Positions 43,609 through 48,327 of a DNA stretch of 51,869 nt are shown here, in pieces. The position numbers and the translations under genes are program-made. Below the pieces are notes generated by a model. The model was not told the origin of the DNA and did no database searches. It saw only the letters and a list, made by a program, of their open reading frames with translations. Position 1 is the first letter of the stretch, and every line of letters starts with the position of its first letter. Location of the stretch: NCBI GenBank assembly GCA_020721325.1, contig DYNA01000007.1:1-51869 (forward strand). The letters are read 5' to 3'. The stretch is from Paludibacter propionicigenes (GTDB lineage Bacteria; Bacteroidota; Bacteroidia; Bacteroidales; JAIFNL01).

Positions 43609-43713
43609 GTGGCAAGCAATTAGGCAAAAATATTATTTTTTACTCAATGCTTAATTGCTAAAGCCGAAAATAATTGGGTATATAGCATTCCTATTTCATT
43701 TGTAAAATTTGTT

Positions 43714-43938
43714 GACCACTAATTCACGAATTAGAACGAATTAAATTAGTTTAAAATTAGTGAATTGGTGGTCATATTATTCTTTTTTTATTTTCACGCA
43801 AAGACGCAAAGACGCAAAGATTTTTTTTAATGGGAACACAGATTACACGGATTGGACTGATTTACACGGATTTTTTTTGACCACTAATTCACTAATTTTA
43901 TACGAATTAATTCGTTTTAAATTCGTGCATTCGTGGTC
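43714..43938. repeat. Two palindromic 60-bp units (43714-43773 and 43879-43938)
   Basis: Each unit starts GACCACTAATTCAC and ends GTGGTC followed by ATATTATTCTTTTTTT, with the ends complementary over about 19 bases (some mismatches). The spacer holds CACGCAAAGACGCAAAG and ACACGGATT repeats. It looks like a nested pile of intergenic elements. Confidence 0.75.
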
Positions 43939-44060
43939 ATATTATTCTTTTTTTTGTTTACCACGAATGCACGAATTTTTTTTTTTGTTTTTATTTTTAT
44001 TTGAAATTGTTTTTTATATTTGTGTTTTTACTTTTGAAATAAAAGGTGTGGTTTTTGTTC

Positions 44061-44177
44061 CAATAACCACCACTCTAATTTTAATAAAATATTTATTTGC
44101 AATGTTTTATAAAAACAGAAAGTAAGTATAAAAAAGTAATAACCACCAGTGTAGTGGTGGTTATTGAAACGTTAGAT
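44061..44177 (+). other. Possible attC-like or boundary site before the first cassette
   Basis: It ends in AAC-G/TTAGAT (44168-44177), a perfect GTTRRRY core site. It can fold two ways: 44138-44148 with 44155-44165 (11-bp stem), or 44061-44074 with 44153-44166. No matching R'' box (RYYYAAC) was found upstream, so it may be a secondary or attI-like site rather than a full attC. Confidence 0.4.
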
Positions 44178-44433
44178 GCAATTCATTGATTTTTAACGTT
44201 ATAATTATGTAACTTTGTTAAAAATGCGCTTTAAAATTTATTTTCAAAAGAATTTTGAACAAAGTTACAGAAAAAAAATGAAAAAAACAACACAAATTGG
44301 GAATTTAGTGCAATTTTTTTTTTATGAAAAAATAAATAAACAGCATCTAACATGTGCTTGAGCGTCATTGTTTTGGGAAGTTCGCTTCGCTCCCTACGCA
44401 AACCCCCAAAACAACGCCGCCAAGCACTTCACG
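44172..44433 (+). mobile_element. Integron-style gene cassette 1 (262 bp, nearly gene-less)
   Basis: The cassette starts at TTAGATGC (after G44171) and ends at G44433 inside attC1. The R'' box of its attC, GCATCTAAC (44343-44351), is the exact complement of GTTAGATGC (44171-44179), as required if circularisation joins the cassette's own ends. It contains only a 27-codon frame and an 11-bp inverted repeat (44209-44219/44259-44269). Confidence 0.7.
44278..44361 (+). CDS. Possible 27-aa ORF of cassette 1
   Basis: The frame starts MKKTTQIGNLVQFFFYEK and its TGA lies inside attC1, the usual geometry for a cassette ORF. It is too short and low-complexity to support alone; it may be a remnant of a longer cassette gene. 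Confidence 0.25.
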   Translation: MKKTTQIGNLVQFFFYEKINKQHLTCA

Positions 44434-44440
44434 TTGTGTG
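44343..44440 (+). other. attC-like recombination site 1
   Basis: R'' GCATCTAAC (44343-44351); outer stem GTGCTTG (44354-44360) with CAAGCAC (44421-44427); inner stem TTGTTTTGGG (44368-44377) with CCCAAAACAA (44405-44414); one arm is a base longer, giving an extra-helical base; then R' G/TTGTGTG at 44433. This is the arrangement of an integron attC. R' deviates from GTTRRRY at one position. Confidence 0.7.
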
Positions 44441-44493
44441 CAATTTCCCATAACGATAAAAACAGATAGAAAACAAATTAAAACTAATTTTTG

Positions 44494-44501
44494 TATCTTT
44501 G
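44494..44501 (+). promoter_or_regulatory. Cassette-borne promoter -7 box
   Basis: TATCTTTG fits TAnnTTTG and ends 4 bases before the endonuclease ATG, so the mRNA is predicted to be leaderless or almost so. This also rules out the in-frame TTG at 44491, which lies within the promoter. Confidence 0.6.
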
Positions 44502-44505
44502 CATT

Positions 44506-45372
44506 ATGATAAATAAAGATAATATAAAACAAGTGTTTCAGGAACAATTAGATGTTTTTGCAAAAACATTAAAAGAATATGTTTCTGATGAAGAAAATCA
44601 ATGGACGATTAAAGGTTTTATTGATTTATTTCAAAACATTTATTCAATATCGGCAGATACAAAAATAGTTTCAAAAGTATTGGAAATACATTTGTTTCCT
44701 CGATTTTTAGAATTTGCTCAAAACAATGGTTACGAGTTGATACTTGCAGAACATCAAAATTGGTATCCTGACATTTCATTTGTTTCTAAAACGGACAAAA
44801 ACATAAAATTTGCAGTTGATTTAAAGACAACATACATTTTGAATGATTATCCAGACCATTGCAATGGTTTTACACTTGGTTCTCATGGTGCCTATTTTAT
44901 CGAGCGTGATAAATCTAAAAATATTCAATTTCCATACAATGAATATTTAGGACACTATTGTTTAGGAATTATTTACAATAGAACAGAATTAGACAAACTT
45001 GAAGAAACAAAAATTTATAAACTTGATGATATTAAGAGTATTCCATCTGTAATTAATAATTTCACCTTTTTTGCCATCGAAAAATGGAAAATCGCAAGTG
45101 ATAAGAGTGGTAGCGGAAATACTGAAAATATAGGAAGTGTTCAAAAAATAAGCGATATTATTGCAGGAAATGGAGTATTTAAAAATCTCGGTGAAGAATG
45201 GTTTGACGATTATTGGATGAATTACGGCAAAATTTATACAAAAGATGCTGCCGGTAAGACAAGAAAAATTACTAATCTTCCTGATTTTCTGAAATACAGG
45301 GGTAAAGATATCAATCTTGCCTATCCGAGAGCAAGAAAACTAAAAGATAAGGGGGACGGATATGAAGACTAA
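44506..45372 (+). CDS. Type II restriction endonuclease, EcoRV family
   Basis: The 288-aa protein resembles EcoRV (245 aa) along its length. Catalytic residues are in place: E60 (equivalent to EcoRV E45), D89 in NWYPDISF (D74), D105 and K107 in FAVDLKTTY (D90/K92). FTLGSHGAYFIERDKSKNI and PYNEYLGHYCLGIIY match EcoRV segments. The recognition loop SGSGNTENIGSV keeps the Gly-Ser-Gly-Asn-Thr contacts of EcoRV, changing only the next Thr to Glu, so cutting at GATATC is predicted. The methyltransferase gene overlaps its end by 11 bases. Confidence 0.93.
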   Translation: MINKDNIKQVFQEQLDVFAKTLKEYVSDEENQWTIKGFIDLFQNIYSISADTKIVSKVLEIHLFPRFLEFAQNNGYELILAEHQNWYPDISFVSKTDKNIKFAVDLKTTYILNDYPDHCNGFTLGSHGAYFIERDKSKNIQFPYNEYLGHYCLGIIYNRTELDKLEETKIYKLDDIKSIPSVINNFTFFAIEKWKIASDKSGSGNTENIGSVQKISDIIAGNGVFKNLGEEWFDDYWMNYGKIYTKDAAGKTRKITNLPDFLKYRGKDINLAYPRARKLKDKGDGYED

Positions 45373-46300
45373 GATACACGTTCCACCAATAAAAATACAG
45401 GGCATAAAAACAAAACTTATTCCATGGATTGCAGAAAATGTTGAATTACATGAAGATACACGTTGGATAGAACCGTTTCTTGGTTCAGGTGTTGTCGGTT
45501 TTAATATTGCAAAAAAAAATGCACTCTTCGCCGATAGCAACCCACATACTATCAGTTTCTATCAGAAAATAAAATCAGGAGAAATAAATTCATCACTTGT
45601 AAAACAATTTTTATATAGGGAAGGCGAAATTTTATCGAAAAAAGGACAAGAGCATTATAATTTTGTAAGAGAACGATTTAACAATGAACAAAATCCTATT
45701 GATTTTCTATTTCTTAATCGTTCGTGCTTCAACGGAATGATACGGTTTAACCGAAATCTAAAATTTAATGTCCCTTATGGTCATAAACCAGAACGATTTG
45801 CACAGGCGTATATAACTAAAATAGTTAATCAGATTAAGTATCTTGAACATGCCTTTTCCCTGAATAATTGGGAGTTCAAATGTCAGTCATTTGAAGATAC
45901 TCTAAATGAAGTAAAAGAAGATGATTTCATCTACTGTGACCCACCATACATTGGTCGTCATGTTGATTATTACGATAGCTGGGATGAAACAAACGAACTG
46001 AAACTACATGAATTACTCATAAATTCAAGAGCAAAATTTATGCTTTCAACTTGGGATAATAACGAATATCGTGAAAATGAATATTTAAAAAGTGTTTGGA
46101 ATGATTGTTTTAAATTAAATAAAGAACATTTTTATCATATTGGAGCAAAAGAAACTAATAGAAAACCAATGATTGAAGCTCTGATAACAAATTACAAAAA
46201 ATCGACAAAACCCGAAGTTGAAGAAATGCCTGAAAAAAATTATGTTCAAATGGATTTATTTTCAATGATAGAAAAAATAAGCACACAACATGGCACTTAA
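45362..46300 (+). CDS. DNA adenine-N6 methyltransferase, M.EcoRV/Dam-like
   Basis: The 312-aa alpha-class (Dam family) methyltransferase has motif X (IQGIKTKLIPWI), motif I FLGSGVVGFN (about 40-50), the RSCFNGMIRFN segment and motif IV D193-PPY in FIYCDPPYIGRH. It should protect the endonuclease's site, predicted GATATC. The start overlaps the endonuclease stop by 11 bases and has an AGGGGG-like ribosome site 8 bases upstream. Endonuclease before methyltransferase in one operon is risky on entering a new host; no controller (C) protein gene is visible. The stop codon is inside attC2. Confidence 0.94.
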   Translation: MKTKIHVPPIKIQGIKTKLIPWIAENVELHEDTRWIEPFLGSGVVGFNIAKKNALFADSNPHTISFYQKIKSGEINSSLVKQFLYREGEILSKKGQEHYNFVRERFNNEQNPIDFLFLNRSCFNGMIRFNRNLKFNVPYGHKPERFAQAYITKIVNQIKYLEHAFSLNNWEFKCQSFEDTLNEVKEDDFIYCDPPYIGRHVDYYDSWDETNELKLHELLINSRAKFMLSTWDNNEYRENEYLKSVWNDCFKLNKEHFYHIGAKETNRKPMIEALITNYKKSTKPEVEEMPEKNYVQMDLFSMIEKISTQHGT

Positions 46301-46390
46301 CGTCAGTCGGTTTTGGGGTGTTTTGCCTCGCTACGCTTCGGCTTCGCAAGCCACCCAAAACCGCCGTCGTCAAGCACTTCACGTTGCTCC
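46281..46390 (+). other. attC-like recombination site 2
   Basis: R'' GCACACAAC (46281-46289); the arms CTTAACGTCAGTCGGTTTTGGGG and CACCCAAAACCGCCGTCGTCAAG pair with mismatches and one extra base; the loop holds CGCTACGCTTCGGCTTCG; the site closes with CAAGCACTTCACG/TTGCTCC (46371-46389), of which CAAGCACTTCACGTTG is identical to attC1. Downstream no complementary R'' (GGAGCAAC) was found, so the array appears to end here. Confidence 0.7.
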
Positions 46391-46569: not shown

Positions 46570-46680
46570 AAAGTAAGTCAAACAGATGGGTAATTTAACG
46601 CTGAGGAAACTTGCTGGGTATGGTTCTTAGGGGACTAAACTATCTGGTGTGGTAACTGAGAACAAACGAAATAAATAATA
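46570..46680 (+). promoter_or_regulatory. Long, less AT-rich mRNA leader with pairing potential
   Basis: It contains GTTCTTAG (46623-46630), which can pair with CTGAGAAC (46656-46663, one G-U pair), plus GGGTATGG and CTGGTGTGG segments. It stands out in composition. No known riboswitch class was recognised. Confidence 0.35.
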
Positions 46681-47383: not shown

Positions 47384-48067
47384 ATGATTGAAAAAATAAT
47401 ATTACCGGCAGTAGTTATTACGGGAATAACCCCAACTGGACAAAGCGATATTCATAAAACGAATATTCAAAATGAAGCAAATTTCTATCAAGAAGTAAAT
47501 TGTTTTACAAAGCAAGAAATTCAAGATATTGTTATATCAATTTGTGTAGATAAACTTGGAATTAATCCTAAACGTATAAATTCCAATAGTGATTTTAGCA
47601 AAGATTTGGGAGCAGACTCGCTTGATGTAGTGGAACTTATTATGGAATTTGAAAAGAAATTCAATATTGCTATTCCTGATGAGAAGGCTGAAAATATGTC
47701 TAAAATTGCAGATGCCGTAAATTATATTTATGAACAATATATAAATGCGGTGTCTTTATTTAGTGAGACTGATTTTTCGGGGAATAAAAAGTGTATAATC
47801 AATAAAACAACCGAATATGAGTATAATTCAAAAAACTATACTCTTGTCGATGGTGGTTTAAGTTCGATTGTTGTTCCATCTGGTTATACAGTAATTCTAT
47901 ACACCGACAAAAATTACGAAGGCGAAACAGTGAGAATAATTGCAACAGATAAAAGAGTTGAAATAAAAAACCTTTCAGAATTAAAAGAACATAAAAGTAT
48001 TGAAATTAGCGACCCCAAAATTAAATGGAACGATAATGTAAAATCAGTAACGATTGAAAAAAATTGA
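47384..48067 (+). CDS. Acyl carrier protein domain fused to a beta/gamma-crystallin-like domain
   Basis: The 227-aa protein has an unusual order. Residues 1-40 are a variable lead. Residues about 42-125 are an ACP domain with the phosphopantetheine site S79 in DLGADSLDVVELIMEFEKKF and the usual helix III (AIPDEKAENMSKIADAV). Residues about 128-227 have paired Greek-key signatures (VSLFSETDFSGNKKCII and VILYTDKNYEGETVRI), each followed by a (D/N)-x-x-x-x-S turn (DGGLSS; NDNVKS), close to the calcium-binding motif of microbial beta/gamma-crystallins. ACPs act in the cytoplasm, crystallin domains are often secreted; the mix is odd. It is not the housekeeping acpP (about 80 aa, with fab genes). 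Confidence 0.8.
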   Translation: MIEKIILPAVVITGITPTGQSDIHKTNIQNEANFYQEVNCFTKQEIQDIVISICVDKLGINPKRINSNSDFSKDLGADSLDVVELIMEFEKKFNIAIPDEKAENMSKIADAVNYIYEQYINAVSLFSETDFSGNKKCIINKTTEYEYNSKNYTLVDGGLSSIVVPSGYTVILYTDKNYEGETVRIIATDKRVEIKNLSELKEHKSIEISDPKIKWNDNVKSVTIEKN

Positions 48068-48163: not shown

Positions 48164-48327
48164 ATAGTATTTGTTTTAATTTGTTTGAAAACCAAAATGC
48201 TTTTTATTTCGCGGCGTTGCCGCTTTTGTGTTTTGTGTCGTTTTTTGTCCCAGCCCTTGCAGGCTGGGCTAATGTAGTGCGCACCTTTGGTGCTTTTTAA
48301 CGGTGAATGTTTTAACGATGAATGCAA

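Follow-up and report, generated by a model that had tools for sequence, protein, structure and literature searches.

We consider it highly probable that the EcoRV-type restriction-modification (R-M) gene pair in the window, i.e., the whole stretch of 51,869 nucleotides analyzed here, lies in a true integron-type cassette, and that its genome holds not one array but an integrase-less integron in dispersed form. Two attC-like sites, attC1 and attC2, delimit one ORF-less cassette and one EcoRV-type R-M cassette, and the features of this locus are as follows.

44007..44170, plus strand: leader, a repeated element with homology up to a C|GTT junction; candidate attI-like acceptor and promoter
44015..44022, plus strand: TATATTTG box, conserved among full leader copies; putative promoter function
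44138..44165, plus strand: leader hairpin AATAACCACCA-GTGTAG-TGGTGGTTATT, five bases before the junction, covarying over 11 copies
44172..44433, plus strand: cassette 1, without notable ORF, carrying inverted-orientation TAACTTTG promoter-like boxes
44349..44435, plus strand: attC1, core AAC...GTT, R'' reaching left to 44343; 82.3 bits with covariance model R2, of which it is a training site
44434..46383, plus strand: cassette 2, EcoRV-type R-M, with start/R'' complementarity and the same ends in the related locus L067
44506..45372, plus strand: EcoRV-type endonuclease, 288 aa (PF09233, E 8e-115), promoter-like TATCTTTG directly upstream
45362..46300, plus strand: D12-class N6-adenine methyltransferase, 312 aa (PF02086, E 5e-44; PDB relatives DpnM/Dam)
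46287..46385, plus strand: attC2, core AAC...GTT, R'' reaching left to 46281; 74 bits with R2, of which it is a training site

Sites and cassettes in the window

Both window sites were confirmed as attC-like, in line with the first-pass annotation, which had placed two such sites on either side of the endonuclease-methyltransferase pair: coordinates and sequences agree with it, and both sites fold on the bottom strand. Measured against dinucleotide shuffles, the bottom strand of attC1 folds with a z-score of −5.4 (top strand −3.2) and that of attC2 with −4.2 (top strand −0.95), and the bottom-strand folds were equalled by 0 of 200 shuffles. Both sites carry inverted R''/R' boxes, AAC...GTT and a crossover point at G|TT, with which the class-wide alignment agrees, and a G follows the bottom-strand AAC in the site class, as in most attC sites (PMC2727003). 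A search of Rfam returned no relevant match to the attC-like sites. The 15-mer common to attC1 and attC2, CAAGCACTTCACGTT, to which the annotation had also pointed, does have exactly two exact copies within the window, but when up to three mismatches were allowed two matches were reached in 37 of 100 shuffles, and taken alone it is then weak evidence; the strong evidence for the window sites is structure and complementarity.

In an integron cassette, the first bases complement the R'' box of the cassette's own attC. The start of cassette 1, GTTAGATGC (44171), pairs at nine of nine positions with R'' GCATCTAAC (ending at 44351), and that of cassette 2, GTTGTGTGC (44433), does so with GCACACAAC (ending at 46289), so the exact complementarity claimed at first pass holds for both window cassettes. 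Cassette 1 or its attC end recurs in the same genome (contigs C80 3485-3864, C30 3642-3862, C222 1-118 and C174 7634-7696), and the copies on C222 and C174 stand just before defence-type cassettes. Cassette 1 may be a mobile promoter cassette.

The endonuclease matches the EcoRV structure 1eo3 (E 4e-37) with the PD...D-x-K catalytic residues aligned, and the methyltransferase gene overlaps the endonuclease gene and ends, as had been noted before, with a stop codon inside attC2 (46298-46300). By family, catalytic residues and the adjoining adenine methyltransferase, the pair is classified as an EcoRV-type type II R-M system, with GATATC as its putative target for cutting and methylation. Relatives were found at 75 loci, widespread in Bacteroidota and elsewhere, so the R-M type itself is not unusual, whereas its packaging in a cassette is: clear attC sites occur at only two of the 75 loci, and these are the two closest relatives (L067 and L132, at 85-87% protein identity), both from other Bacteroidales MAGs. 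At L067 an attC lies on each side of the R-M, and the cassette ends are identical to those of cassette 2, i.e., the R-M cassette is a precise unit in different contexts. An extra small ORF precedes the endonuclease in both of these relatives (L067 585-956, L132 88-426); it has no Pfam match, and neither the window nor any of the other 73 EcoRV-type loci has it (E 1e-3). The R-M at L135 5999-7112, in a Gammaproteobacteria MAG, is 77-80% identical to the window at the DNA level and lacks ~585 bp between its two matched parts, apparently through a deletion.

The attC-like site class and its boundaries

We used two covariance models: R1, from six sites of the window's own genome (which match by construction), and R2, a wider model of 45 sites; both were built from such sites, and the scores of training sites are therefore circular. 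R1 found further sites on contigs C4, C30, C176, C222, C174, C210, C228, C80, C122 and C221, and at least 14 sites in total were located by covariance model in the genome of the window, which answers the proposal that the rest of the genome be searched for more. Within the order, R2 gave matches in 22 of the 290 genomes searched. An alignment of the 45 sites, which was fitted to the structure and hence leans towards it, shows both partners changed in 20 of its 23 pairs (163 such cells, where shuffles give 51). The check by an attC-type covariance model thus came out in favor of the sites, with strong matches in this and other genomes and strong covariation, for a model that is self-built. The bottom strand is the more stable in 38 of 40 sites, and in 39 of 45 the longer arm is L'' rather than L', which bears out for the class the extra base that had been read in the paired arms. 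Published attC sites likewise show a folding bottom strand, additional bases in the L'' arm and a terminal structure that varies (PMC2727003), and the sites studied here have these features in common with them. Some attC ends are degenerate (C30, C80 and C176), and several contigs end inside or close to attC sites.

Complementarity between start and R'' extends beyond the window. Among 14 consecutive site pairs (from the window's genome, genome G017 and L132), all six variable bases match in 10 and at least five in 11, while a control that took the downstream neighbor instead gave 2 of 14. The non-matching pairs lie on C222 (4/6), on C210 (2/6) and in G017 (one pair, 2/6). This last genome belongs to a different family and has multi-cassette arrays with near-perfect start/R'' matching.

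A repeated leader and its cargo

A DNA search that started from cassette 1 and its surroundings led to about 12 copies of the leader in the genome of the window, full or hairpin-only (the latter on C64, C36 and C229). Nine copies share ~165 bp, from the TATATTTG box to the hairpin, with homology stopping at GTT, and the sequences that follow are mostly unrelated to each other. In the window's genome, no recognisable cassette stands behind the copies on C198, C36 and C229. Two more copies were found in another family of the order (genome G057). The TATATTTG box resembles the Bacteroidota −7 promoter box (TAnnTTTG), and a sigma-70 promoter scan gave no excess over shuffles, as is expected for Bacteroidota. 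In the hairpin, 92% of cells are paired over the 11 copies, with 10 two-sided changes against 5.1 in shuffles. Palindromic repeats (accactaattcacgaatt...) lie between CheW and the leader (window 43710-43990), and REP-associated tyrosine transposase-like genes were seen near two leaders (L172 3199-3834 on C141, L173 1982-2335 on C203). The leader, with its promoter-like box, stands where a complete integron would have its attI acceptor, and judging by the junctions it may be an attI-equivalent acceptor. In the literature searched, chiefly open-access, no description of dispersed leaders was found.

The junctions also allowed prediction. When R'' was predicted from the nine bases after the leader, it was found at attC-like hairpins with nine of nine matches on C203, C22 and C228 and eight of nine on C211; the attC on C203 was then scored by the models, and that on C22 was identified by complementarity, not by a model. 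In G057, the cassette headed by a leader has an R'' that matches at nine of nine bases, and what stands behind the attC of this first cassette recurs directly behind the leader at a second locus. Similarly, a GTTATTCCGGCA-starting sequence of the window's genome stands behind the leader hairpin on C64 and behind attC on C4 and C210 (twice). In these leader-versus-attC comparisons, the sequences agree at 85-95% on the right side of the junction, and at 0.42-0.46 over 60 bp, i.e., chance, on the left. The boundary check proposed at first pass came out in favor at other loci, whose boundaries coincide with C|GTT. An empty site at the window locus was sought in genomes G001 and G002 and none was found, since homology stops at CheW, past which the nearest relatives are not syntenic. 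The GTTATTCCGGCA repeat lies at L021 1838-2100, L043 1345-1700 and 3891-4250, and L178 (minus strand, from the hairpin junction), and a related stretch lies at window 46590-46660. Further on, the repeat carries CTTGCTGGGTACGGTTCTTAGGGG, reminiscent of group II intron sequence, and in C210 it has no complementarity to the R'' of the cassette it precedes.

That all these hairpins are ordinary terminators or REP-like repeats, with boundaries that coincide by chance, is hardly credible. Read in the minus-strand direction, the leader hairpin does resemble a terminator, and palindromic repeats abound in the genome, but such elements leave the variable start/end complementarity, the C|GTT junctions and the strand asymmetry unexplained, and the prediction of R'' from leader junctions contradicts them.

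The cassettes at leader loci hold mainly predicted anti-phage defence genes. Cargo behind leaders or beside attC sites includes, in addition to the EcoRV-type R-M, type I HsdM/HsdS, Eco57I-type (IIG) and GmrSD (type IV) systems, DUF1016/YhcG nucleases, HSDR_N proteins, AAA_21/AAA_15 ATPases, RloB, Fic and RhuM; where the assembly breaks off before the cassette ends, as on some contigs, cassette membership is provisional. Some G017 cassettes look similar in cargo, and a defence role is not obvious for the first cassette of G057. Of the other window proteins, the 29 that were scanned seldom matched the defence library, with a UvrD-type helicase in the lead. Downstream in the window, an Acido-Lenti-1 RNA scores above the Rfam gathering threshold (48249-48294, 43.8 bits), and in the protein at 47384-48067 an acyl-carrier-like domain (PF00550) is joined to a region that weakly matches peptidase inhibitor I36.

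The integrase and comparison with known systems

No IntI over the TIGR02249 cut-off was found in the assembly of the window's genome (91% complete, 254 contigs), in agreement with the earlier remark that no integrase was in sight; a genome-wide intI search had been called for there. The only two PF00589 proteins of this assembly, in open frames of 326 and 305 aa, both look Xer-like. Within the order, IntI exceeded the cut-off in five of 295 genomes and in 0 of the 22 attC-bearing (R2-positive) genomes, 14 of which are at least 90% complete; the two sets thus do not overlap, but since the training genomes of R2 lacked IntI and other attC types could escape it, mutual exclusion is not claimed, and with drafts that are incomplete the missing IntI is not proof of absence. 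Two further candidates were rejected as integrases: a 671-aa protein on C183 of genome G018, which looks XerC-like and whose match skips profile positions 181-237, and C325 3336-3515 of G017 (L183), only a 63-aa C-terminal tyrosine recombinase fragment directly behind attC-like sequence.

In the mechanism that we propose, a folded single-stranded attC would have been recombined at G|TT, which would have inserted the R-M cassette behind the ORF-less cassette, itself placed behind the short leader. The ~12 leader copies at separate loci, mostly followed by one or a few mainly defence cassettes, would serve as attI-equivalent acceptors whose promoter may drive the first cassette. Recombination would have been carried out by an IntI-type tyrosine recombinase that has meanwhile been lost or that works from elsewhere, and the cassettes would protect against phage. 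A further reading, which is quite possible and which we advance tentatively, is a multi-platform integron, where each of the ~12 small, promoter-bearing attI-like leaders would be a separate site for the landing and expression of mobile defence cassettes, with an integrase not encoded in this genome, or an unrecognised recombinase, working on them in trans.

The same loci could be ordinary integron remnants, left when an array with intI was broken by rearrangement and lost its integrase, with the leaders as disused, scattered attI duplicates. The absence of IntI from this genome, the truncated or apparently empty leaders and the degenerate attC ends on C30, C80 and C176 all fit such a history. 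We find it doubtful, because full leaders differ in downstream sequence, junctions are exact and complementarity is mostly intact, cassettes of another family stand behind a related leader, and IntI over the cut-off is missing from every one of the 22 attC-bearing genomes. This last count, with its 14 genomes of at least 90% completeness, also speaks against an integrase that is present but was not assembled or binned, an unlikely explanation even though the MAG is incomplete and fragmented, repeats break integron contigs, several contigs break off within or close to attC sites, and IntI does occur in the order. Use of the attC-like hairpins by another recombinase (e.g., XerC/XerD) or an unrelated single-strand transposase is distinctly improbable: the two Xer-like proteins are the only PF00589 members of the genome and the REP-associated transposase-like genes stand close to the C141 and C203 leaders, but the structural features match those of published attC sites (PMC2727003).

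Should the dispersed integrase-less integron be real, antiphage genes would be captured by an integron-type process in Bacteroidales-type genomes, from which complete integrons have seldom been described, and searches for intI plus clustered attCs would overlook part of it. Such a system would offer a test case for an attI-like platform in many copies without a resident integrase, and the leader would be a precise marker for candidate defence genes, namely the first genes behind it. Bacteroidota are listed among the phyla with integrons (PMC9668308), and the IntegronFinder 2 survey had a single complete integron in Bacteroidetes proper, that of Salinibacter (PMC9024848). Assignment of the host itself to Bacteroidales is based on the named relatives of the cassette and on the promoter-like boxes.

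With two sites within 2 kb and no intI, the window corresponds to a CALIN, which has at least two attC sites and no integrase; in its default setting, IntegronFinder 2 lists CALINs from two attCs upwards only (PMC9024848). The CALIN-like reading made at first pass is thus supported but incomplete, as the locus is one of ~12 headed by the same leader and mostly filled with defence genes. CALINs likewise hold attC-delimited cassettes without a linked or detected intI, whereas here the sites are single or paired at many loci, each headed by the repeated leader. Defence cassettes are known from the Vibrio integron, and the sedentary chromosomal integrons of Vibrio also carry defence genes as attC cassettes with a promoter upstream of position one, but in one large array with IntI (PMC12409362), in contrast to the many small loci without a detected IntI described here. 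Gene-less promoter cassettes of integrons (PMC6557892, PMC11014356) resemble cassette 1, whose promoter activity is putative, in being ORF-less and standing before a gene cassette. The R-M pair itself shares with the EcoRV system the endonuclease family, the aligned catalytic residues and a neighboring D12 adenine methyltransferase, and, unlike most of the EcoRV-type relatives found, it is carried in a cassette.
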